Origin: Oscillibacter valericigenes
GTDB lineage: Bacteria; Bacillota; Clostridia; Oscillospirales; Oscillospiraceae
Assembly: GCF_021531435.1 (NCBI RefSeq)
Contig: NZ_JAFBIS010000007.1
Location: forward strand, 1-64,000
Length of the DNA: 64,000 nucleotides
Direction of reading: 5' to 3'
Shown piece after piece: positions 19,875 through 31,989 of the stretch (the stretch's first letter is position 1; each line of letters begins with the position of its first letter). A program made the translations under genes and the position numbers. The notes under the pieces are model-generated. The model saw only the letters and a list, made by a program, of their open reading frames with translations. It made no database searches and was not told where the DNA came from.

Positions 19875-20150
19875 ATGAGATGCCTGGCCCGCAGTGAGCC
19901 GGCAGGTCCGTTTCGCGTATTGCCGGATGAGCGGGGGCGCAGGAATTTGCCTCCGTCCGCTGTCGGTCTGACTCTGGAGGCCGGTGTATGGGAGGCATTT
20001 CAGGACCTCTGTCAGAGGCTTGGGCTCACGCCGGCGGACTGCTTCAGCGCATGGGCGCGCTTCATGGTCCAGCCGGAGGCGTATCAAGCCGTGAAAGAAT
20101 GGATGGGAAAGGAGAACGAATATGGGAACATTTTTGGACTGCGTCGGTAA
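19875..20150 (+). CDS. Small RelB/DinJ-like protein, first gene of the unknown pair
   Basis: The C-terminal half, LTLEAGVWEAFQDLCQRLGLTPADCFSAWARFMVQ, resembles the ribbon-helix-helix/helical part of RelB/DinJ antitoxins (residue, helix, G-L-T-xx-D-A-F). The N-terminal part is basic and not recognisable. ATG 19875 leaves a 40-base leader from the mapped promoter; a GTG at 19839 is possible but lies almost at the transcript start. It overlaps the 466-aa gene by 29 bases, so the two are coupled, as in many regulator/effector cassettes. RelB similarity is weak and tentative. Confidence 0.45.
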   Translation: MRCLARSEPAGPFRVLPDERGRRNLPPSAVGLTLEAGVWEAFQDLCQRLGLTPADCFSAWARFMVQPEAYQAVKEWMGKENEYGNIFGLRR

Positions 20151-21522
20151 GCCGCATATCCCGGAAGACCGGCGGGAAGAATTCCAGCAGCGCATGCTCC
20201 GTCTGTTCCGGGAGGGCGGAATGATGTGCTGGGAAAAGGTGGAGATGTTTGGAAAAAAGAACTCCCTTCTGTATTTTCCGGAGCCAGACGAGAATGGCCA
20301 CCTCTGGTTTAACTATAACTATTTTGAGGATGACTGCTGGGAGGACGCCGGAATGCACGATGGCAGCATTTTCAGTAATAAGGTCGGCTGGCAGCATTTC
20401 TGCAGGGTCATGTCCGCCGCTTATGTCCTGGAGGAGCGCAGCTCCGATACCCCCTGCTTCGCGGATCTCCGGGACCCTGATATTCCCCACTGGTTTACGT
20501 TAGGCTGGCTGAAATATCTCTTCGGTGAAGAACTGCCGCTGGAAAGTCCTTCTATCTGGGATACGTATGTGTTTCTGAAAAACGCCGGCGAGTATGAGCA
20601 GTATGGCGGCAGCTGGGACGACATTCTGGAGCGGAACATCAGGTCCAATTGGGACGAGCTGGACTTTTTGGCAGTCAAAACCGTGGAGCATGGCACGGAG
20701 GAAGTCCTGCGGGAACTTGAAGCAGAGGAAGCGGAAAACGGCTCGGAAAGAGAGGAAGAAAGAGAGGAAGATGGTTCCCTCCCGCTGAGTGTATGCTACG
20801 CCGGGTTTCTGGCGTACGTTAAAAAAGTCCCGGAACAGCTCACGGGAACGGAAGATGAGCAGCTCCAGCTGATTATGAAATATCTGGCAGAGCCCGACAA
20901 AGACACGCTCATCGCAAGGGCAAAAGATGAGCATGAGCCGGAGAACCTCAGAGATCTTCCGCTCATGCAAGCCTATTTTCCCCGGCAGATCGTTGTGAAA
21001 ACGCTGGCGGAAATCTATCACCGGGATTTCTGGGACTTGTGGGAGCAGGCAAAGGAAGGCTACGCCTGTCATTTTTATCAAAAAATGGTGAAGGAGGAAC
21101 AAAAGCCTGTCCAGCCGATCCCAACGGACGTCTACCTCCATCTCACTCCCGAAGAAAAACTGTTCTGTTTGTCCCCTGAAGAAATGGAAACGCTGTCCCA
21201 GGGAACCAGAATATGGCTGGAAGTGCTGCAGATTCGTTTTAACAAGGCCCTCCATGCGCCGAAGCCCTGGTCTGACGGTCTCTCCTTCCAGCGCTCTATG
21301 ATAGAAACACTGTCCGCGGTACGGGCCCGCGACACCAGGGTCCGGGCCTTCCGGGACATGTTTTATGAATTTCTGGCCAACTGGGATCAGCCCGCATATC
21401 AAGCCATGTGGAAGCTTTTTGAGGAGATAGCCGCGAAGGAAGAGACCGAGTCTTCCCGCCTGCGGCAGTACCTCGCTTTGCTGTTCAATCGTCCGCTGCG
21501 GAAAGCGGTATTCGGCGTCTGA
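20122..21522 (+). CDS. 466-aa protein of unknown function, copy 1
   Basis: I recognise no domain. GGAAAGGAG (20106-20114) precedes the ATG. The protein is soluble and acidic with no signal peptide or membrane segment. Visible landmarks: an aromatic-rich N-terminal block (WFNYNYFEDDCWEDAG, residues about 61-76), a Glu-rich charged linker (EEREEDG, about 215), a middle block LMQAYFPRQIVVKTLAEIYHRDFWDLWEQAKEG, and a strongly helical C-terminus (FRDMFYEFLANWDQPAYQAMWKLFEE onward). It is coupled to the RelB-like gene and has a 462-aa paralogue downstream. An effector role is only an inference from context. Confidence 0.8.
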   Translation: MGTFLDCVGKPHIPEDRREEFQQRMLRLFREGGMMCWEKVEMFGKKNSLLYFPEPDENGHLWFNYNYFEDDCWEDAGMHDGSIFSNKVGWQHFCRVMSAAYVLEERSSDTPCFADLRDPDIPHWFTLGWLKYLFGEELPLESPSIWDTYVFLKNAGEYEQYGGSWDDILERNIRSNWDELDFLAVKTVEHGTEEVLRELEAEEAENGSEREEEREEDGSLPLSVCYAGFLAYVKKVPEQLTGTEDEQLQLIMKYLAEPDKDTLIARAKDEHEPENLRDLPLMQAYFPRQIVVKTLAEIYHRDFWDLWEQAKEGYACHFYQKMVKEEQKPVQPIPTDVYLHLTPEEKLFCLSPEEMETLSQGTRIWLEVLQIRFNKALHAPKPWSDGLSFQRSMIETLSAVRARDTRVRAFRDMFYEFLANWDQPAYQAMWKLFEEIAAKEETESSRLRQYLALLFNRPLRKAVFGV

Positions 21523-21984: not shown

Positions 21985-22262
21985 ATGAGATGACCGGTCC
22001 GCAGGGAGCCGGCAGATCCGTTTCGCGTATTGCCGGATGAGCGGCGGGAGCAGGAATGTGCCTTCGTCCGCTGTCGAACGGACTCTGGAGGCCCCGTGTA
22101 CGGGAGGCATTTCAGGATCTCTGTCAAAGGCTTGAGCTCACGCCGGCGGACTGTTTCAGCGCATGGGCGCGCTTCATGGTCCAGCCGGAGGCGTATCGAG
22201 CTGTGAACGAATGGATGGGAAAGGAGAACGAATATGGGAACGTTTTTGGGCTGCGTCGGTAA
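21985..22262 (+). pseudogene. Decayed second copy of the RelB-like small gene
   Basis: The start ATGAGA of copy 1 is kept but the third codon is TGA. Further on, an extra base before GTGTACGGGAGG shifts the frame relative to copy 1. The last 50 codons (REAFQDLCQRLELTPADCFSAWARF and onward) are intact and could be read from ATG 22056 as a 68-aa truncated protein. The overlap with the downstream large gene is preserved. Confidence 0.65.
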
Positions 22263-23622
22263 GCCGCATATCCCGGAAGACCGGCAGGAAGAATTCCAGC
22301 AGCGCATGCTCCGCCTGTTCCGGGAGGGCGGCATGATGTGCGATGAAAGTGCGGAAATGTTCGGCAAAAAAATTACCCTTCTGTATGCCCCGGAGCTGCG
22401 CGAGGATGGCCGCCTCTGGTTTAACTATAACTATTTTGAGAATGACTGCTGGGAGGACGCCGGAATCGACACGGACCATATTTTCAGCAATAAGGTCGGT
22501 CGGAGCCATTTCTGCATGGTCATGGCCGCAGCTCGTGTTCTGGAGGAGCGCAGCTCGGATACGCCCTGCTTTGCGGATCTCCGGGACCCTGATATTCCCC
22601 ACCGCTATCCGCTGGGCTGGCTGAAATACCTCTTCGGTGAAGAGCTGCCGCTGGAAAATCCCTCTCTCTGGGATACTTATGTGCTTTTGAAGGCTGGCGG
22701 CAAGTATGACCGATACAGCGGCAGCTGGGACGATATTCTGGCGCGGAACGCCGGATCTTTTGTGGATCAGATGGACATACTGGCGATCAAAACCGTGGAG
22801 CACGGCACAGAGGAAGTCCTGCGGGAAATCGAAAACGATGATTCTGAAAAAAAATCGTCTGAAGGGGCTGACGATTTACCCACACTGGGTGCGTCCTATG
22901 CCGCGCTTCTGGCGTGCGTTAAAAACATTTCGAAACAGCTCCCAGGTTCAAAAGAGGAGCAGCTCCAGAAGACCATGAAATATCTGGCGGAGCCTGACAG
23001 CGACACGCTCACTGCAATGAAAGAAGACGAGAGCGAGCCAAAGGATCTCAGACAGCTTCCGTTTAAGTCTCTTTTTCTGCCGCGACAAATCATTGTGAAA
23101 GCGTTGGCGGAGCTCTACGACCGGGATTTCTGGGAATTGTGGGAGCAGGCGAAGGAAGGCGATGTCTATCATTCTTATCAGGAAATAGCAAAACTATGTC
23201 GAAAGCCCATCGTGCCGTTCCCAACGGACGTCTACCTTGATCTCACTCCCGACAGAAAATTATTCTGTTTGCCTCCCGAAGAAATGGAAACGCTGTCCCC
23301 GGAAACCAGGGCGTGGCTGGAAGATCTGAAGGTCCGTTTTAACGAGGCTCTCCATGCGCCGAAGCCCTGGTCTGACGGGACCTCCTTCCAGCGTTCCATG
23401 CTGGAAACGCTGTCCGGCGTGCAATCTCGAAATGCCAAGGTCTGGGCCTTCCGGGACATGTTCTATGAATTCCTGGTCAACTGGGATCAGCCCGCATACC
23501 AAGCCATGTGGAAGCTTTTTGAGGAGATGGCCGCGAAGGAAGAGACCGAGTCTTCCCGCCTGCGGCAGTACCTCGCTTTGCTGTTCAACCGTCCGCTGCG
23601 GAAAGCGGTATTCGGCGTCTGA
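22234..23622 (+). CDS. 462-aa protein of unknown function, copy 2
   Basis: Paralogue of the 466-aa protein, with near-identical ends (first 30 and last 55 residues) and more divergence in the middle, especially the charged linker, which is shorter here (NDDSEKKSSEGADD). GGAAAGGAG precedes the ATG. The reading frame is intact although its small partner gene is broken and no strong promoter precedes it, so it has either been kept by selection or is a recent duplicate. No domain recognised. Confidence 0.8.
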   Translation: MGTFLGCVGKPHIPEDRQEEFQQRMLRLFREGGMMCDESAEMFGKKITLLYAPELREDGRLWFNYNYFENDCWEDAGIDTDHIFSNKVGRSHFCMVMAAARVLEERSSDTPCFADLRDPDIPHRYPLGWLKYLFGEELPLENPSLWDTYVLLKAGGKYDRYSGSWDDILARNAGSFVDQMDILAIKTVEHGTEEVLREIENDDSEKKSSEGADDLPTLGASYAALLACVKNISKQLPGSKEEQLQKTMKYLAEPDSDTLTAMKEDESEPKDLRQLPFKSLFLPRQIIVKALAELYDRDFWELWEQAKEGDVYHSYQEIAKLCRKPIVPFPTDVYLDLTPDRKLFCLPPEEMETLSPETRAWLEDLKVRFNEALHAPKPWSDGTSFQRSMLETLSGVQSRNAKVWAFRDMFYEFLVNWDQPAYQAMWKLFEEMAAKEETESSRLRQYLALLFNRPLRKAVFGV

Positions 23623-24755: not shown

Positions 24756-25175
24756 TCATGCCTCGGGATGGTCAAGTTCTTCCCGCAGCATACGAACAGC
24801 TTCATCCAGATACCTCTGCATCGGCTGCAAAGGCCCGATCGCAAGGCGGATCCTGCACCGCTGCGAGGGAAGCAGTATTTTCAGAGCATCACTCTCTCCC
24901 ACAGCAGCCGCCATGGCAGGCGTCACTTCACCCAGCAATGCGTTTGCCGACAGCACTGCCACGGGCCCCATAATGATCTCCACCCGTCCCGCATTATAAA
25001 CGATGGCGTTTTCGCCGGTGGCTCCGTCATTCGCGCCCGCTTTCATCATAGCGGCCGTAGCCTGCGCATTGGTTCCCAGCGCACGAATGTGAATATCCGG
25101 AAACTCCGCCCTGACCCGCTCCACCAGGGCTCTGCCAACTCCGCCGCCCTGACCATCGATCACCGCGACCTTCAT
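24756..25175 (-). CDS. DUF3842-family protein
   Basis: A 139-aa cytoplasmic protein. The start KVAVIDGQGGGVGRALVERVR and the block GTNAQATAAMMKAGANDGATGENAIVYN are the family signatures; the beta-strand plus Gly-rich loop looks like a nucleotide-binding fold. Function unknown. I chose ATG 25175, seven bases after GAGG; ATG 25187 is possible. It heads a two-gene operon with the IclR regulator and is divergent from the nickel-pincer genes, a neighbourhood that may hint at a related metabolic role. Confidence 0.8.
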   Translation of the reverse strand: MKVAVIDGQGGGVGRALVERVRAEFPDIHIRALGTNAQATAAMMKAGANDGATGENAIVYNAGRVEIIMGPVAVLSANALLGEVTPAMAAAVGESDALKILLPSQRCRIRLAIGPLQPMQRYLDEAVRMLREELDHPEA

Positions 25176-25231
25176 GGGATGCCTCATCTTTCTCCGCGCC
25201 TTTCCCGGCAAACTTCACCTTTATATTACAT

Positions 25232-25261
25232 ATCATAAAGGATCCTGCATATTATTTCCAA
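25232..25261 (-). promoter_or_regulatory. Promoter of the DUF3842/IclR operon
   Basis: On the minus strand, -35 TTGGAA (25261-25256), 18-base spacer, -10 TATGAT (25237-25232). The palindrome at 25263-25279 abuts the -35. Confidence 0.45.
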
Positions 25262-25262
25262 C

Positions 25263-25279
25263 ATCATTATCATAATGAT
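25263..25279. promoter_or_regulatory. Perfect 8-1-8 palindrome, Fur-family-box-like
   Basis: ATCATTAT-C-ATAATGAT is a perfect inverted repeat resembling Fur/Zur/PerR boxes (the classic Fur box is built from GATAAT-type hexamers). It lies immediately upstream of the -35 of the minus-strand DUF3842 promoter and about 95 bases upstream of the lar promoter, so a metal-responsive regulator could act on either operon. Confidence 0.5.
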
Positions 25280-25372
25280 TCAACAGTTTTCTGTCAACAG
25301 TTTTCGTAAATGTCAAATAAAGTTTGTTAATATCAAACAACCTTGTGATTCCCTTTTTATATATTGCAACGA

Positions 25373-25402
25373 TTGACTTTTATAGACCCTTTTCACTATA
25401 AT
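25373..25402 (+). promoter_or_regulatory. Promoter of the nickel-pincer (lar) operon
   Basis: -35 TTGACT (25373-25378), 18-base spacer, -10 TATAAT (25397-25402). The transcript should start near 25409, which leaves a leader of about 160 bases before larE. Confidence 0.65.
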
Positions 25403-25408
25403 AAACGT

Positions 25409-25558
25409 ACACAGTCAGAAGACTGTTGCGAAGCCAGAAGGCTCCCAATGAACATTCCAGCGCCCCCTTCCGCACACGTATTAGATCGCGGACCATTATG
25501 ACAGAAGTCGTCGCAGATGTCTGAAGACATACCTATTGGGTATGTCTTTTTTTGTTGA
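25409..25558 (+). ncRNA. Structured leader of the lar operon, candidate riboswitch
   Basis: The leader folds into ACAGTC-AGAA-GACTGT (25411-25426), a closing helix TGCGA (25427-25431) with TCGCA (25511-25515), AGCC-AGAA-GGCT (25432-25443), and GAC-AGAA-GTC (25500-25509). Three hairpins thus share an AGAA loop. Downstream, AGATGTC-TGAA-GACAT (25516-25530) overlaps and excludes the 5' arm of the terminator at 25524-25553, the usual riboswitch expression platform. I recognise no known class; a nickel, cofactor or metabolite ligand is only inferred from the genes controlled. Confidence 0.55.
25524..25554 (+). terminator. Intrinsic terminator just before larE (attenuator)
   Basis: AAGACATACC (25524-25533) pairs with GGTATGTCTT (25539-25548) around TATTG, followed by a T run. 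It stands right in front of the larE ribosome-binding site (GAGAGGAG), so it ends transcription inside the operon leader rather than after a gene. Confidence 0.85.
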
Positions 25559-25569
25559 GAGGAGCAAAC

Positions 25570-26325
25570 ATGGAACTGAAAGATTTTTTTGAACAAAACC
25601 CAAGCGGTGCATTGGCCTTTTCCGGCGGAGTGGACTCGTCCCTGCTGGTCTGGGCGTCCGCGCAATACGGAAAAGATTGGCGCGCCTACTATGTCCATTC
25701 CGCCTTCCAGCCCGCTTTTGAGCTGGAGGACGCCAAACGGATCGCTGCCCAGTGCGGCATGCCCCTTACCGTTATTGAAGGAGACATTCTTCAGTATCCG
25801 GAGGTGACCGCCAATCCCCCTGACCGCTGCTATTACTGCAAGCGCCGCATCTTCTCCGGTATCCTCCAGAGAGCCGCAGAAGATGGATACCGGCTGGTCA
25901 TCGACGGGACCAACGCCTCCGATGACGCAGGGGACCGTCCCGGCATGAAGGCCCTGCGGGAACTGGAGGTCCGCTCGCCCCTGCGGGAGTGCGGTCTGAC
26001 CAAGTCCGACGTTCGTGCGCTGTGCCGGGAGGCCGGCCTGTTCGTCTGGAACAAGCCCTCCTATGCCTGCCTCGCCACCCGCATCCCCGCCGGGACTCCC
26101 ATCACGGAGGAAGCCCTGCGGAAGGTGGAGCAGGGAGAGGGCCTTCTCGCCTCCCTGGGCCTCCGGGATTTCCGCATCAGGCTCCGAGGAGACGCGGCAG
26201 TCATCCAGGTAACGGACGCCCAGCAGGACGATGCCTGGGCAATGCGCCATGAGATCCGCTCTGCGCTGGCCCCCATCTTCCCGTTGGTGTCTCTGGACCT
26301 GACGGCCCGGAAAAACAGCGACTGA
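25570..26325 (+). CDS. larE: LarE, pyridinium-biscarboxylate sulfur transferase
   Basis: LarE supplies the two sulfur atoms of the nickel-pincer nucleotide cofactor. The 251-aa protein has the ATP-pyrophosphatase PP-loop SGGVDSS near residue 19, the CYYC pair in PPDRCYYCKRR near 86, and KPSYACLATRIP near 170, whose Cys corresponds to the sulfur-donating Cys of single-Cys LarE. The presence of three cysteines in these places suggests the iron-sulfur-dependent, non-sacrificial type. GAGAGGAG precedes the ATG, directly after the attenuator. First gene of the lar operon; larB follows 14 bases later. Confidence 0.9.
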   Translation: MELKDFFEQNPSGALAFSGGVDSSLLVWASAQYGKDWRAYYVHSAFQPAFELEDAKRIAAQCGMPLTVIEGDILQYPEVTANPPDRCYYCKRRIFSGILQRAAEDGYRLVIDGTNASDDAGDRPGMKALRELEVRSPLRECGLTKSDVRALCREAGLFVWNKPSYACLATRIPAGTPITEEALRKVEQGEGLLASLGLRDFRIRLRGDAAVIQVTDAQQDDAWAMRHEIRSALAPIFPLVSLDLTARKNSD

Positions 26326-26339
26326 AAGGAGTAACAGAC

Positions 26340-27101
26340 GTGGCAAGCAAGCACGATATTCTCTCTGTCCTGCAGGACGTGCAGTCCGGCGCGCTGACGC
26401 CGGAGGAGGCCCTTCTGCACCTGAAGCTGGCCCCTTTCGAGGACCTGGGCTACGCCAAGGTGGATTACCACCGGGCCGTCCGCCAGGGCGTGCCGGAGGT
26501 GATCTACGGCCAGTCCAAGACCAAGGAGCAGATCAGCGGCATCCTGGGTGCCATGGAGAAGCGGGGAAGCCGCAATATTCTGGTGACCCGCATTGGGCAG
26601 GAGGTAGCGGACTACCTGGCGGAGCAGTTCCCGCTGCGATATGAGCCTCTCGCAAAATTGGCAGTGGCCCTGCCGGAGCCGGTGGAAGGGCATGGTTCTA
26701 TCGTGGTGGCCACCGGCGGCACCAGCGACATGGGCGTGGCAGAGGAGGCCGCCATCACCGCCGAGACCCTGGGCAACCGGGTCACCCGGCTCTACGACGT
26801 GGGCGTGGCGGGACTGCACAGGCTGCTTGGCAATCTGGAGCCGCTGATGAGCGCCCGGGTGGTCATCGCCGTGGCGGGCATGGAGGGGGCTCTCGCCAGT
26901 GTGGTAGGCGGCCTTGTGGACTGCCCCGTCATCGCGGTCCCTACCAGTGTGGGCTACGGCGCGTCCCTAGGCGGGATCTCCGCCCTGTTGTCCATGCTGA
27001 ACTCCTGCGCCAGCGGGACCAGCGTGGTGAATATCGACAACGGCTTCGGCGCGGGCTTCCTGGCCAGCCGGATCAATCAGATGGAGAGTGCGAAAGAATG
27101 A
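26340..27101 (+). CDS. larB: LarB, NaAD pyridinium carboxylase/hydrolase
   Basis: LarB carboxylates the pyridine ring of nicotinic acid adenine dinucleotide and cleaves off AMP, the first step of nickel-pincer synthesis. The 253-aa protein has the N-terminal family helix bundle (LEDLGYAKVDYHRAVRQG-like stretch) and a C-terminal PurE/AIR-carboxylase-like domain (VVATGGTSDMGVAEEAA, VIAVAGMEGALASVVGGL, VPTSVGYGASLGG). The start is GTG 26340 behind AAAGGAG. It overlaps larC by four bases (ATGA). Confidence 0.92.
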   Translation: MASKHDILSVLQDVQSGALTPEEALLHLKLAPFEDLGYAKVDYHRAVRQGVPEVIYGQSKTKEQISGILGAMEKRGSRNILVTRIGQEVADYLAEQFPLRYEPLAKLAVALPEPVEGHGSIVVATGGTSDMGVAEEAAITAETLGNRVTRLYDVGVAGLHRLLGNLEPLMSARVVIAVAGMEGALASVVGGLVDCPVIAVPTSVGYGASLGGISALLSMLNSCASGTSVVNIDNGFGAGFLASRINQMESAKE

Positions 27102-28477
27102 AAACATTATATCTGGAATGCAACATGGGCGCCGCCGGCGATATGCTGATGGCAGCGCTGTACGAGCTGATGACCGAATCCGAAAAGCATGATTTTCTGG
27201 AGACCATGAACCGCCTGTTTCCCGGCGTGGAAATTCACTCCCGGCAAGCCGTCACCTGCGGCATCACCGGCACCCATATGGACGTCACCGTCCGCGGTGA
27301 GGAGGAGCACAGCCACGATGTGGCCCTGGGCTGTGGGCAGGAGCATATTCATGTCCATGAGCACGTGCATGACCATGACCACGACCATCACCACGACCAC
27401 GAGCATGAGCATGAACATGAGCATGAGCATGACCACGCGCACGATCACGGCCACGTCCATGACCACGATCATGACCATCACCATGACCATGACCACGGCC
27501 ACACCCACCACCACACCGCCCCGGCGGACATTTACGCCCTGCTGGATGCTCTGGACGCCCCGGCAAAGGTAAAGGACGATGCCAAGGCCATCTATGCCCG
27601 CATCGCAGGCGCGGAGGCCAAGGCCCACGGGATGCCGGTGGAGCAGATCCATTTCCATGAGGTAGGCGCCCTGGACGCGGTGGCGGACGTCACCGGCGTC
27701 TGTCTGGCGGTCCACATGCTGCACCCCGACCGCATCGTGGCGTCCCCCGTTCATCTGGGCAGCGGACAGGTCCGCTGCGCCCACGGCATCGTACCGGTGC
27801 CCGCTCCCGCCACCGCCCACCTGCTGGAGGGCGTTCCCTGCTACACCGGGGACATCCGTGGCGAGCTGTGCACCCCCACCGGCGCGGCCCTGCTGACCCA
27901 CTTCGCCGAAGCTTTCGGCCCCATGCCCGTCATGTCCCTGGAGAAGACCGGCTACGGCGTGGGCAAAAAGGAATTCCCCGCCGCCAACTGCGTCCGGGCC
28001 TTCTGGGGCGAGAGCGGTGACCCCCAGCAGGCGGAGATCGTGGAGCTGTGCTGCCACATCGACGACATGACGGCGGAGGCCCTGGCTTTTGCCGGGGAGC
28101 AGTTGCTGGCCCAGGGGGCCCTGGACATCTCCTGCGCCCCCCTGACCATGAAGAAGGGCCGGGCCGGTGTCAGCTTTACCGTGCTCTGCAAGCCCAAGGA
28201 CGAGGAGCGCATCGCCCACGCCATCCTGCGGGAGACCAACACCAACGGCGTCCGCTCCCGCCGCTGCGGGAAGTACATTCTGACGCCCTCCGTCAGAACC
28301 GTGGAGACCGCCTACGGTCCCATCCGCGTCAAGTGTGCCGACGGTGAGGGCATCCACCGGGAAAAGCCGGAATACGAGGATGTGGCCTCTGCCGCCAGAG
28401 CTGCTGGGCTGCCCTTCCAGAAGGTCTGGGAGGACGTGCTGTCCGTTATTCACGGGGAGGTGTCCCAGAATGGATAA
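27098..28477 (+). CDS. larC: LarC, nickel insertion protein with His-rich insert
   Basis: LarC is the CTP-dependent cyclometallase that puts nickel into the pincer nucleotide. Here it is one continuous frame of 459 aa. Family motifs: LYLECNMGAAGDML at the start, QIHFHEVGALDAVADVTG near 185, EKTGYGVGKKEFP near 285, LCCHIDDMTAEALAF near 318. Residues about 68-145 are a dense His/Asp/Glu tract, probably for nickel binding or storage. In some lactobacilli larC is made from two frames by frameshifting; that is not needed here. It overlaps the FmdE gene by eight bases. Confidence 0.92.
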   Translation: MKTLYLECNMGAAGDMLMAALYELMTESEKHDFLETMNRLFPGVEIHSRQAVTCGITGTHMDVTVRGEEEHSHDVALGCGQEHIHVHEHVHDHDHDHHHDHEHEHEHEHEHDHAHDHGHVHDHDHDHHHDHDHGHTHHHTAPADIYALLDALDAPAKVKDDAKAIYARIAGAEAKAHGMPVEQIHFHEVGALDAVADVTGVCLAVHMLHPDRIVASPVHLGSGQVRCAHGIVPVPAPATAHLLEGVPCYTGDIRGELCTPTGAALLTHFAEAFGPMPVMSLEKTGYGVGKKEFPAANCVRAFWGESGDPQQAEIVELCCHIDDMTAEALAFAGEQLLAQGALDISCAPLTMKKGRAGVSFTVLCKPKDEERIAHAILRETNTNGVRSRRCGKYILTPSVRTVETAYGPIRVKCADGEGIHREKPEYEDVASAARAAGLPFQKVWEDVLSVIHGEVSQNG

Positions 28478-28988
28478 GGCCATGTGGGAAAAAGCAGTGG
28501 CCTTCCACGGCCACGAGTGCCCGGGTCTGGCCCTGGGCGTGCGGTTGTGCGAATTCGTACAGGCGCGGCTGGGCCATGCCTCCACCCCTGACGAGGAGCT
28601 GGTCTGCATTGCCGAGACCGACGCCTGCCCCGGCGACGCCATTCAGTCCCTGCTGGGCTGCACCCTGGGCAAGGGGAATTTCATCTACCACTGCACCGGC
28701 AAGACCGCCTACACCTTTTATGACCGTGCCTCCGGCGAAGGCTTCCGGGTGGTCGCCAGGCGGAACCAAACGTCCCTCAGCCGAGAGGAGCGCAAGCAGC
28801 AAATTCTCACTGCGCCGCTGGAGGAGCTGTTCACCGTGACGGAGCCCAAGGAGCCCCTGCCGGAAAAGGCCCGCATCTTCACCACCCTCACCTGCGCCTG
28901 CTGCGGCGAGGGCGTGGCGGAGCACATGGCCCGTCTGCAGGGCGGCAAGGTGGTCTGCCTCCATTGCTTCCGTCCCTATGACCGCTGA
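28470..28988 (+). CDS. FmdE-family protein with C-terminal zinc ribbon
   Basis: A 172-aa protein. The N-terminal FmdE domain shows HGHECPGLALGVRLCE near residue 13, ETDACPGDAIQSLLGCTLGKGN near 50, and YDRASGEGFRV near 85. The C-terminal CACCGE...CLHC pairs (about 140-165) form a zinc ribbon. FmdE proteins accompany formylmethanofuran dehydrogenase in archaea but are widespread in anaerobes with an unsettled, possibly metal- or cofactor-handling role. GGGGAGG inside the end of larC precedes ATG 28470. Its place between larC and a metal-type importer suggests nickel handling. Confidence 0.85.
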   Translation: MDKAMWEKAVAFHGHECPGLALGVRLCEFVQARLGHASTPDEELVCIAETDACPGDAIQSLLGCTLGKGNFIYHCTGKTAYTFYDRASGEGFRVVARRNQTSLSREERKQQILTAPLEELFTVTEPKEPLPEKARIFTTLTCACCGEGVAEHMARLQGGKVVCLHCFRPYDR

Positions 28989-29007: not shown

Positions 29008-30138
29008 ATGAAAAAACTGTTTTCCATCCTGTTAGTCTGTATCCTGCTGCTGTCGCTGGCCGCCTGCGGTCAAAAGGAAGCGCCCGCCCCGGAGGAACCT
29101 GCTGAATCCGAAGCACCTGTTACCCGCACTGTCACCGACAGCTTTGGGCGAGAGGTCACCATCCCCGCGGAGGTGAAAACCATCGTCTGCACCGGCTCCG
29201 GCGCCCTGCGCATGGTGACCTACCTGCAATGCACCGACCGTCTGGTGGGCGTGGAGGACTGCGACAAGGAATATGCGACCTCCACCCTCCGGGATTACGC
29301 CTACGCTTATCACGATACCTTTGACGCCCTGCCCTCCATCGGCAAGGGCGGCGGCACCGCCAACACCGCCTATGTAGAGGAGCTGATCCGCCTGCAGCCG
29401 GACGTGATTCTGTCCGGCTATACCCAGGAGGCGCTGGAGGACCTGGCGCAGTCCACCGGCATTCCCTGCGTGTCCATCCGCGCCAAGAGCATTAACTTCA
29501 TTGACGACAGCTTCTACACCGCCATGCGGGTGGCCGCCGAGGTGCTGGGCGTTCAGGAACGGTGCGAGGAAGTCCTTCAGTACATCGACGGCTGCAAGGC
29601 CGATCTGGATGCCCGGACATCGGACATCCCCGACGAAGACAAGCCCGCCGTCTACGCCGGCGCCGTGACCTTCTCCGGCGCCCACGGCTTTACCGGGACC
29701 TACTCCAACTTCGGCCCCTTCATGGCCATCCACGCCAACAACGTGGCCGACGAGATGGGAGAGACCGGCTATTTCGACGCCGACCCGGAACGGGTGGTGG
29801 CCTGGGACCCGGAGCTGATTTTCCTGGACCCCGGCAACATGAGCCTGGTGCGGGACGAGTATCAGACCAACCCCGGTTTCTTTGACTCCCTGACCGCGGT
29901 CCGGGAGGGCAAGCTCTACGCCTGTGTCTCCTTCAACAACTATTCCACTAACGTAGGCTACGCCCTGGCGGACGCCTACTACGCCGGCAGCGTCATCTAT
30001 CCAGAGCGTTTTACCGACGTGGATATTGCAGAGAAAGCCGACGATATTCTGGAGTTCTTGCTGGGAACTCGCTATTACAACGACATGAAGGCCGACGGCC
30101 TCATCTTTGGAGTGATCGAACTTGGATCTGCACAGTGA
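29008..30138 (+). CDS. Periplasmic-binding lipoprotein of a FecBCD/BtuFCD-type importer
   Basis: A 376-aa substrate-binding lipoprotein. The signal peptide ends in the lipobox LSLAACG, followed by an acidic Pro linker. The body is a class III (helical-hinge) binding protein: RTVTDSFGREVTIP, MVTYLQCTDRLVGVED, IRLQPDVILSGY, and VVAWDPELIFLDP are typical of metal-chelate and corrinoid binders. I chose ATG 29008 because it begins the signal peptide; an ATG at 28978 is in frame. Context with lar genes favours nickel or a nickel chelate, but siderophore, heme or cobamide cannot be excluded. Confidence 0.85.
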   Translation: MKKLFSILLVCILLLSLAACGQKEAPAPEEPAESEAPVTRTVTDSFGREVTIPAEVKTIVCTGSGALRMVTYLQCTDRLVGVEDCDKEYATSTLRDYAYAYHDTFDALPSIGKGGGTANTAYVEELIRLQPDVILSGYTQEALEDLAQSTGIPCVSIRAKSINFIDDSFYTAMRVAAEVLGVQERCEEVLQYIDGCKADLDARTSDIPDEDKPAVYAGAVTFSGAHGFTGTYSNFGPFMAIHANNVADEMGETGYFDADPERVVAWDPELIFLDPGNMSLVRDEYQTNPGFFDSLTAVREGKLYACVSFNNYSTNVGYALADAYYAGSVIYPERFTDVDIAEKADDILEFLLGTRYYNDMKADGLIFGVIELGSAQ

Positions 30139-31207
30139 ACAGCTTCATACGGCGACACCTGACAGCTACCGCCTGTTTCTCCGGCGGAAGCGGCTGGTGA
30201 CCCTTGTCCTGCTGACGGCAGTATTGACGGCAGCTCTGCTGTCCCTGACCTCGGGCTCCGCCGGGCTGTCCCTTGCGGAGCTGGCGGACACCCTGACAGG
30301 CGGCGGCACGGCCCAGAGCCGGGCCATCGTGTTCCATGTCCGTCTGCCCCGCGTCGCCGTGGCAGTGGTCGTGGGGGCCGCTCTTGCTCTGGCGGGCTGT
30401 GTCATGCAGAACATCCTGCGGAATCCTCTGGCCTCGGCCTCCACGCTGGGCGTGTCCCAGGGCGCCGCCTTCGGCGCGGCATTGGCCATCATTGCCCTGG
30501 ACGCCGGCGCTCAGAACGCCGCCAACGCAGGCACTGCCGTTACCATCAGCTCCCCCGGCACCGTGACCCTCTGCGCCTTTCTGGGGGGACTGGCGACCAC
30601 GGCGGTCATCCTGGGCCTGTGCCGCCTGCGGTCCGCGTCGCCCTCCTCCATGATCCTTGCGGGCGTGGCCCTCAGTTCCCTCTTTTCCGGGGCCACTACC
30701 CTGCTGCAGTACTTTGCCGACGATGTACAGCTGTCCGCCGTGGTCTACTGGACCTTCGGCGACCTGGGTCGCCCCGGCTGGTCGGAGATCCGGCTGATGT
30801 ACGCCGTCACCCTGGCGGCGCTGGTCTACTTTCTCTGGAACTGCTGGAACTATAATGCATTGAGCAGCGGCGTCCAGACCGCCAAAAGCCTGGGGGTGAA
30901 CGTGGACCTGCTGAGCTTTGTCAGCATGGGACTCTGCACCCTGATTTCCGCTACGGCGGTGGCCTTTGTGGGCATCGTCAGCTTTGTGGGCCTCATCGCC
31001 CCCCACATCGTCCGCCGGTTCGTGGGCAGCGACTACCGTTTTCTGCTGCCCTGCTCCGCCCTGGCGGGCAGTCTCCTCCTTCTGCTGGGCGACCTGGCGG
31101 CCAAAGCCATCCTGCCCCCGGCCATTCTGCCCATCGGCGCCATTACGTCCTTTCTGGGGGCACCGCTGTTCCTGCTGTTGATCTTCCGGGGGGAGGCGCT
31201 GAAATGA
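30122..31207 (+). CDS. FecCD-family ABC importer permease
   Basis: A 361-aa polytopic membrane protein with about ten helices. The family signatures LPRVAVAVVVGAALALAGCVMQNILRNPLASASTLGVSQGA (start part), SLGVNV, and GIVSFVGLIAPHIVRRFVGSDYRFLLP are clear. The first codon is TTG 30122 and overlaps the end of the binding-protein gene by 17 bases behind GGAG; later starts are possible but would cut the first helix region. It overlaps the ATPase gene by four bases (ATGA). Together with its neighbours it forms a complete importer. Confidence 0.9.
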   Translation: MDLHSEQLHTATPDSYRLFLRRKRLVTLVLLTAVLTAALLSLTSGSAGLSLAELADTLTGGGTAQSRAIVFHVRLPRVAVAVVVGAALALAGCVMQNILRNPLASASTLGVSQGAAFGAALAIIALDAGAQNAANAGTAVTISSPGTVTLCAFLGGLATTAVILGLCRLRSASPSSMILAGVALSSLFSGATTLLQYFADDVQLSAVVYWTFGDLGRPGWSEIRLMYAVTLAALVYFLWNCWNYNALSSGVQTAKSLGVNVDLLSFVSMGLCTLISATAVAFVGIVSFVGLIAPHIVRRFVGSDYRFLLPCSALAGSLLLLLGDLAAKAILPPAILPIGAITSFLGAPLFLLLIFRGEALK

Positions 31208-31989
31208 TCCAAGTCGAAAACCTGTCTTTTTCCTATGGCTCCCACCCCATTTTGCAGAATGTGAGCTTCACTCTGGAGCAGGGCGAATGTGTGGCGATAC
31301 TGGGCAACAACGGCGCGGGAAAATCCACCCTGATCTCCTGCATCAGCCGCCTGCGCAAGCCGTCATCGGGAAATGTCCTGATTGACGGCAGCCCCATCTC
31401 TCAGCTTTCCCGGAACCAGCTGGCCCGGCAGATCGCCTACGTGTCCCAAAAAAATGAACTGGCTCACGCCACCGTGTTCGACGCCGTGCTGCTGGGCCGC
31501 AAGCCCCACATGAAGTGGGGCCCCTCCGCCGTTGACTACGACGTGGCGGAGCACGCCCTGCGGGCCGTGGGCATGGAGGACTGCCGCCTGCGGTATGTGG
31601 ACCAGCTCTCCGGCGGCGAGCAGCAGAAGGTGATGCTGGCACGGGCCATTGCCCAGGAGCCCAAGCTGCTGCTTCTGGATGAGCCCACAAGCAGTCTGGA
31701 CCTGCGGAACCAGTACGAGTCCATGGAACTCATCCGCCACTGCGCCCACGACCACCATATCGCCGTGCTGGTGGTCATCCACGACCTGAATCTGGCCCTG
31801 CGGTTCTGTGACCGCTTCCTGTTCCTGCAGGGCGGCACTATCTTCGCCTCCGGCGGGGCGGAGGCGGTGACGCCGGAGAACATCCGGGCCGTCTACGGGA
31901 TGGAGGCCAGCGTGGAGCAATTCCGCGAGGTCCCAGTGGTCATTCCACTCTTTCACAGGCATGAGCCTTGTTCAGCAATGTATGAGTGA
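31204..31989 (+). CDS. ABC importer ATPase (FecE/BtuD type)
   Basis: A 261-aa ATPase. Walker A GNNGAGKST near residue 38, Q-loop VSQKN, signature LSGGEQQKVMLARAI, Walker B LLLLDEPTSSLD, and switch His (VVIHDLNLAL) are all intact. It energises the permease encoded directly upstream. Last gene of the lar/importer operon; no obvious terminator follows within 100 bases. Confidence 0.92.
   Translation: MIQVENLSFSYGSHPILQNVSFTLEQGECVAILGNNGAGKSTLISCISRLRKPSSGNVLIDGSPISQLSRNQLARQIAYVSQKNELAHATVFDAVLLGRKPHMKWGPSAVDYDVAEHALRAVGMEDCRLRYVDQLSGGEQQKVMLARAIAQEPKLLLLDEPTSSLDLRNQYESMELIRHCAHDHHIAVLVVIHDLNLALRFCDRFLFLQGGTIFASGGAEAVTPENIRAVYGMEASVEQFREVPVVIPLFHRHEPCSAMYE

Follow-up and report, generated by a model that had tools for sequence, protein, structure and literature searches.

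A conserved tandem-hairpin leader upstream of larE in Clostridia: a putative antitermination element of a nickel and nickel-pincer nucleotide regulon

Introduction

The nickel-pincer nucleotide (NPN) is produced from NaAD by LarB, LarE and LarC, and in the 64,000-nt stretch of Oscillibacter valericigenes DNA analysed here (the window) the genes for all three stand behind a leader of about 150 nt that is rich in small hairpins. An earlier note on this DNA had regarded the leader as riboswitch architecture of a class it did not recognise. The question raised by the locus is what reads these hairpins: does the RNA itself bind a ligand, or are the loops displayed for a protein? As set out below, we consider it somewhat more probable than not that this is a nickel- or NPN-responsive antitermination leader whose loops are read by a trans-acting factor, and such a leader of a nickel/NPN regulon is apparently undescribed.

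The operon and its leader

The operon is on the forward strand. Its first gene, larE (25570..26325), for the sulfur transferase of NPN synthesis, scored over the cut-off of the NCBIfam equivalog TIGR00268 (E 1.2e-69), and is followed by an AIR carboxylase-like gene (26340..27101; Pfam PF00731), named larB from operon order, and by larC (27098..28477; PF01969, E 1.7e-129), for a nickel insertion protein with a His-rich insert. In Lactobacillus plantarum, larC requires a programmed frameshift; the larC of the window is a single frame of 459 aa with a long His/Asp-rich insert, and a frameshift is unnecessary. Next come a gene assigned by domain match to an FmdE-like protein with a dksA/traR zinc finger (28473..28988, start approximate), an ABC importer composed of binding protein, FecCD permease and ATPase (29008..31989; PF01497, PF01032, PF00005), and, after the ATPase, a rhodanese gene. 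The importer is probably for metal uptake, and the metal may be nickel, to judge from the operon only. Upstream of the leader and divergent from it are a DUF3842 gene (24756..25175, reverse strand; PF12953, E 1.2e-48) and an IclR regulator gene. Elsewhere in the window, two open reading frames (20122-21522, 466 aa, and 22234-23622, 462 aa) look like tandem paralogues, with similar starts and ends.

The leader (25409-25553, forward strand) consists of two tandem-hairpin units with loops of the form C-(A)NGAA-G, and its first hairpin starts about 8 nt after the -10 hexamer of a promoter-like sequence (TTGACT, 18 nt, TATAAT; 25373..25402). Unit 1 comprises P1 (ACAGUC-AGAA-GACUGU, 25411..25426), a 5-nt linker (25427..25431) that places the two loops 15 nt apart, and P2 (AGCC-AGAA-GGCU, 25432..25443); unit 2 has the same layout, with P3 (AUGAC-AGAA-GUCGU, 25498..25511), a 5-nt linker (25512..25516), again with 15 nt from loop to loop, and P4 (AUGUC-UGAA-GACAU, 25517..25530), the putative antiterminator hairpin. 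The three AGAA-loop hairpins that the earlier note had pointed out, P1 to P3, were confirmed, and it had overlooked that the hairpins are paired at a nearly fixed loop-to-loop distance. Between the units, the fold of the window leader has an extra stem (UCCGC/GCGGA, 25469..25492), and a stem resembling it was seen by eye in one other leader (L003).

Unit 2 runs into an intrinsic terminator (25523..25553), a hairpin at about 25523-25549 followed by a run of U's. Since the loop and 3' arm of P4 overlap the 5' arm of this terminator, P4 and terminator are mutually exclusive as judged from sequence and folding only, and the exclusive antiterminator and terminator that had been proposed right before larE were borne out. 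The 150-nt leader folds at -42.3 kcal/mol, as against a mean of -33.2 for shuffled sequences (z -2.49), and 4 of 200 shuffles folded equally well. A long-range closing helix had also been proposed (25427-25431 with 25511-25515), and it is present in the window's own fold (25409-25531); its conservation did not hold up, in that the pairing of the linkers, read by hand in 12 leaders including that of the window, had a mean of 2.92 versus 2.62 when permuted (p 0.12).

Conservation and covariation among larE leaders

A larE search in 300 genomes of the family gave 154 with a match, and a search in one species-genome set gave 496 loci, of which the best 80 were used. Small C-(A)NGAA-G hairpins proved common to many of 110 larE upstream regions, and they precede larE in both Oscillospiraceae and Lachnospiraceae; in other Clostridia, similar ones lie upstream of operons that begin with metal-transporter genes. 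In 105 non-redundant leaders, hairpins with AGAA loops numbered 46 (1.55 expected), those with AGGAA loops 40 (0.3 expected) and those with UGAA loops 16 (1.8 expected), counts that are not independent events because the leaders are related. The loop repertoire across leaders is of 4-5 nt, with AGAA, AGGAA, UGAA, CAGA, AUGAA and similar. In 107 leaders, 49 pairs of hairpins had their loops 8-40 nt apart; the distance peaked sharply at 15 nt (22 pairs), and the opposite strand of these regions yielded no pair. In seven leaders of Lachnospiraceae type, the partner assigned to P4 by the script is a GAA-type loop 13-14 nt further on, at the tip of the terminator.

Absence of covariation had been named as something that would refute the riboswitch candidate, and covariation was found. 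Unguided analysis of seven hand-picked relatives with MAFFT and RNAalifold, two of the input stretches stopping before the terminator end, recovered P1, with compensatory changes, as well as P2, P3 and the terminator, and 16 of the 29 pairs had changed on both sides. Two alignments were also made, one of 28 of the 110 leaders, chosen by eye, and one of 26 distinct dual units with a spacing of exactly 15 nt. The covariation score of the dual unit was 0.832 versus 0.192 when shuffled and at most 0.176 when slid, a comparison biased by rows having been picked for pairing; P1, P2 and P4 together scored 0.659 versus 0.223 shuffled, with hairpins picked by hand, which likewise favours pairing. The pair that closes the loop is nearly invariant, being C-G in 25 of the 26 units for both hairpins. 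The leader before larE is real and conserved, and it belongs to a subset of larE genes, since dual units were present in only 2 of 40 further larE upstream stretches.

Some larE leaders are of other appearance. Those of L089, L075 and L082 differ in their second half (GGGAAGCAG...CGAAGCGUGCC and similar) and may be a further variant. Those of L007, L012 and L013 (genomes G145, G066 and G202, respectively) have a terminator and hairpins without GAA loops; these three genomes have DUF3842 and an ANTAR gene, and their control of larE is possibly different or has diverged.

Attenuation by a leader peptide, with a ribosome stalled on a short reading frame setting the choice between P4 and terminator, had been named as something that would account for the leader without a riboswitch. 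The window does have a 17-codon frame that starts at 25448 and is preceded by AGAAGG; frames of at least 8 codons with a Shine-Dalgarno-like site occur in 8 of 28 leaders, and as their peptides look unrelated and no conserved peptide emerged, we consider this explanation barely conceivable.

Similar hairpins at other loci

The scan for dual units by script covered 0.77 Mb of loci, most of them fetched for larE, on both strands (1.54 Mb in all), and returned 58 rows, of which 55 were at larE leaders (repeat loci counted), two at L125 and one at L074. L125, from another family (f31), has two full units before the gene for the S component of an ECF transporter, with DUF3842 just upstream (L125 / L272 4604-5426). 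At L279 (G291) DUF3842 is followed by an apparently similar S component gene without the hairpin. The L074 row is a dual-unit-like pair with AGGAA and AGAA loops (about 45-139), located 2.9 kb ahead of larE and on its strand.

The neighbourhoods of DUF3842 genes supplied further cases. In G124, one AGGAA hairpin lies between DUF3842 and a gene that was named CbiM/NikM-like by eye, which is followed by two transporter-like genes and then larE-larB-larC. In G227, hairpins lie between DUF3842 and a binding-protein gene, with permease, ATPase and larEBC behind; the binding protein is of the same general type as the window's, its best NCBIfam matches being TIGR04281 and a ferrichrome family, both below cut-off. 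G150 has a dual UGAA unit after DUF3842, and behind it come a gene resembling those for methyltransferases and an operon for a transporter that includes a nikA-like protein. In G543, one AUGAA hairpin precedes DUF3842 and a second, over a terminator, separates DUF3842 from a nikA-like gene, and in G727 a nikA-like gene (by eye) is divergent from DUF3842; an AGGAA hairpin lies close to the promoter of this nikA-like gene, and the terminator contains an AUGAA motif. The nikA names are best NCBIfam matches with scores (136.9 and 117.7 bits) far below the curated cut-off of 393, and because of these scores nickel is likely, and not proven, for the nikA-like genes.

With the nikA-like protein of G543 as query, 196 Clostridia genomes yielded 10 loci, spread over 9 of them. 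Hairpins over terminators were read at those of G543, G577, G429 and G461, with a variant in G422 (partly by eye), and none was recognised at those of G452 (behind larC), G508, G539 (two loci) and G455 (also partly by eye). Because similar hairpins also precede probable nickel-uptake genes, the list of ligands put forward in the earlier note, namely nickel, the pincer nucleotide, NaAD and lactate-like acids, narrows towards nickel or NPN status.

Apart from the window itself, the leader DNA used as query matched 6 of 400 family genomes, in each case with the 3' part only (query 93-164 of 172). The pattern GCAGGAAGC-N2-18-GCAGAAGC occurred in 14 of 391 Clostridia genomes, its reversed control in 3, and among the 15 places matching the pattern only L125 has dual units by script. 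A first covariance model (R1) gave 24 matches at E<=1 in 94 loci and missed L125, whose units are far apart. A second (R2), of the dual unit, matched 26 of 33 genomes at E<=2; it missed the leaders of the window, G082 and G115 because just 150 of the thousands of first-look candidates were scored, and it matched genomes that have no leader, with E down to 0.015. Among 30 loci fetched from its matches, 12 had a dual unit by script, and of six others inspected by eye, those about 2.8 kb past larE resemble coding sequence. Owing to these weaknesses, our claim of a regulon is founded on the DUF3842 neighbourhoods, single finds and the nikA search rather than on a genome-wide RNA scan.

DUF3842 and the reading of the loops

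DUF3842 and the leader go together. Among 70 genomes with larE (70 of the 71 best-scoring of the 154, G067 having been passed over), DUF3842 was present in 19 of the 20 with the leader versus 12 of the 50 without (p = 3.5e-8, uncorrected for phylogeny). The leader was judged by eye rather than by the dual-unit script in four of the 20 (G214, G089, G287 and G246); G281, with a sub-threshold match, was counted as lacking DUF3842, and G124, G227, G150 and G247, with hairpins elsewhere or partial, as lacking the leader. With leader calls by script only, the figures were 15/16 versus 16/54 (p 4.8e-6, again uncorrected). Adjacency gave a similar picture in the 78 of the 80 loci that were long enough, some of which have less than 3 kb upstream: the hairpin was present in 16 of 17 larE loci with DUF3842 in the upstream sequence covered versus 12 of 61 others (p 2.5e-8), and dual units in 10 of the 17 versus 7 of the 61 (p 1.5e-4), neither value being corrected for phylogeny. 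DUF3842 was also present in all 11 further genomes with such hairpins, five of which (G543, G727, G150, G227 and G124) had been found via DUF3842. As for the ten nikA-like loci, the five read as positive are all in genomes with DUF3842, the query G543 included, and the three in genomes without it are all negative for the hairpin; G452 and G508 have DUF3842 and nikA-like genes without a recognisable hairpin. There are exceptions at larE as well: G118, a genome that is 99% complete, has an intact leader and no DUF3842, and at L041 DUF3842 adjoins larE without a hairpin. In the wider class, DUF3842 was present in 115 of 341 sampled Clostridia genomes; a hairpin lay within 400 nt at 12 of 56 DUF3842 loci, of which L301 at least may be chance, and the downstream neighbours, as recognised by eye, were varied and mostly non-nickel genes.

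DUF3842 is unnamed in the literature searched. Its predicted structure (pLDDT 87.7) is Rossmann-like, and the model resembles NAD-binding domains and flavin decarboxylases (Z up to 9.7, rmsd 4.2 over 125 residues), an arrangement that is a common one; Rossmann proteins are mostly enzymes. When its sequence profile was compared with PDB chains, there was no significant match (best uL1, E 0.019), and neither this comparison nor the fold searches brought out a relative that binds RNA. C107 is an invariant cysteine in 15 sequences, which were those used of 20 proteins after extraction had failed in 22 of 42 loci. On the model, a dinucleotide-sensing role for DUF3842 would fit. We regard DUF3842 as the best, though tentative, candidate for the trans-acting partner of the leader, one that we would not back at even odds, and we hold slightly more loosely the wider idea that it constitutes a new family of RNA-binding antiterminators, small and with a Rossmann fold, which would sense nickel or NPN (or NaAD), grip tandem C-(A)NGAA-G hairpins and control nickel uptake and NPN synthesis in Clostridia.

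The main alternative to a trans-acting factor is that the RNA is itself a riboswitch of a new class, built like guanidine-II from minimal tandem hairpins. The paired loops would then bind nickel, NPN or NaAD, and the bound ligand would tip the balance towards either P4 or the terminator. The absence of a recognised class was upheld: neither the 64-kb window nor any of 10 related loci had a match to an Rfam 15 family, NiCo included, at the gathering score, and at E up to 10 the region 25200-25620 gave five matches, all far below gathering score, with none to NiCo for the leader. The exclusive antiterminator and terminator, the conserved loops at nearly fixed spacing within units, the narrow range of associated genes, for NPN and probably for nickel uptake, and the one genome that has the leader without DUF3842 would all suit such a riboswitch. 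It is harder to reconcile with how little appears to be conserved beyond the loops, their closing pairs and the P4/terminator region: the spacers vary, the stretch from P2 to P4 ranges from 21 to 110 nt among 28 leaders, the starts of the two units in L125 are separated by about 190 nt, the number of hairpins differs between leaders, and the proposed closing helix is unconserved. It also leaves the association with DUF3842 unexplained. For this variability of length and hairpin number, riboswitch architecture as originally put forward was not supported. Because what is conserved is mainly the loops, the C-G closing pair, the unit spacing and the overlap with the terminator, the leader looks more like a set of protein sites than an aptamer, and we consider a ligand-binding riboswitch unlikely, and less likely than a loop-reading trans-acting factor.

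A protein other than DUF3842, and other than an ANTAR protein, may instead bind the loops, with DUF3842 merely a member of the nickel regulon. G118, which keeps the leader without DUF3842, would then be no exception, and the DUF3842 gene of G543, which follows one such hairpin and precedes a nik-like operon, is placed as a regulon member would be. No further shared neighbour was noticed in the neighbourhoods that were read. The weight we give to this alternative is a part of what we give to trans-acting factors as a whole, and is marginally smaller than what we give to the riboswitch.

Comparison with ANTAR targets

The known RNAs that most invite comparison are the targets of ANTAR antiterminator proteins. 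As described in PMC3369931 and PMC8934654, these have dual hairpins, a constrained linker and a last hairpin overlapping an intrinsic terminator, and their hexaloops begin with A and have G as the fourth base. The larE leader shares the dual hairpins, the constraint on linker length and the overlap of last hairpin and terminator, and could be the target of an ANTAR protein with a relaxed loop rule; its own loops, of 4-5 nt and mostly (A)NGAA, depart from the A1/G4 hexaloop rule (PMC3369931, PMC8934654). Among larE genomes, every one of the 20 that carry the leader has an ANTAR gene, as do 28 of the 50 that do not (p 1.3e-4, uncorrected for phylogeny); of the 11 further genomes with such hairpins, three (G543, G429 and G227) lack ANTAR.

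Judged by eye, the ANTAR gene of G000, G232 and G271 adjoins the gene for glutamine synthetase, and in G000 and G271 its neighbour on the other side codes for glutamate synthase; this location speaks against a role at larE. Of 11 glnA leaders read in genomes of this kind, 9 have a hairpin with an (A/G)AAGGC hexaloop (GAAC-(A/G)AAGGC-GUUC or longer) that has G at loop position 4 and overlaps a terminator, and the loop begins with A in 2 of the 9; no such hexaloop hairpin was present in the glnA leaders of the window's own genome and of G082. In most of these genomes, then, the ANTAR-like hexaloop is found at glnA, and larE has a loop of another, shorter kind. The ANTAR genes beside glnA (L154, L157 and L139), together with the glnA leaders (L189-L200), likely constitute a nitrogen ANTAR system. 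Membership of the larE leader in the ANTAR class was rejected on the loop rule and on the genomes without ANTAR, and as an explanation we consider it very improbable; the resemblance in mechanism was retained.

Proposed mechanism and its meaning

With a loop-reading trans-acting factor as the preferred explanation, the leader would work as follows. Transcription would start just before P1, and the two units, P1+P2 and P3+P4, would display their C-(A)NGAA-G loops at nearly fixed 15-nt spacing. Unaided, the terminator would take the 3' arm of P4, and RNA polymerase would stop before larE. A trans-acting RNA-binding factor would recognise the loops, those of unit 1 as it emerges and then those of unit 2, and by keeping P4 closed would prevent termination, so that larE-larB-larC and the transporter are made. 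Read-through would presumably occur under nickel or NPN shortage, a sign of response suggested by how genes for uptake and for cofactors generally behave. The candidate factor, the Rossmann-like DUF3842, might have a dinucleotide as its signal, for example NPN or the NPN precursor NaAD.

If this is true, a so far undescribed RNA element controls the nickel-pincer cofactor, and probably nickel uptake as well, in gut Clostridia, the uncharacterised DUF3842 gains a testable role, and the question arises of how NPN synthesis is matched to nickel supply. Should the RNA itself bind nickel or NPN, it would represent a new riboswitch class.

Comparison with known systems

Among the matches listed in our searches, seen as titles and the starts of abstracts with few subscription journals, and covering the literature on larE, NPN, lar, larA, the nik operon and nickel-transporter leaders, the element is undescribed. 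It is best placed by its likeness to systems that are known. CsrA targets carry GGA in hairpin loops, and a CsrA target was rejected since the window's four loops, AGAA and UGAA, contain no GGA; AGGAA loops do occur in relatives of the window leader. The NiCo (czcD) riboswitch has a four-way junction and is associated with efflux genes; the larE leader shares with it the connection to nickel-related genes, the junction and the efflux genes being NiCo's own. The guanidine-II riboswitch (mini-ykkC) consists of tandem small hairpins with conserved ACGR tetraloops in a variable context and goes with guanidine genes. The larE leader is like it in tandem small hairpins, conserved loops and variable context, and differs in having neither ACGR loops nor guanidine genes, and no Rfam match. 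In antitermination of the PyrR or BglG type, hairpins in the leader are read by a sensor or a metabolic protein, which thereby determines whether a terminator forms, and the mode proposed here, with a protein reading hairpins, is similar, although the RNA sites differ (a comparison made via the Rfam scan only). Closest in design are the ANTAR dual-hexaloop antiterminators (EutV/eutP, NasR/nasF and AmiR), with tandem small hairpins, conserved loops and an overlap with the terminator as in the larE leader. Compared with their targets, the larE leader has loops closed by C-G and, in the window, two dual units in tandem, and hairpins of its type sit at NPN and probable nickel genes.
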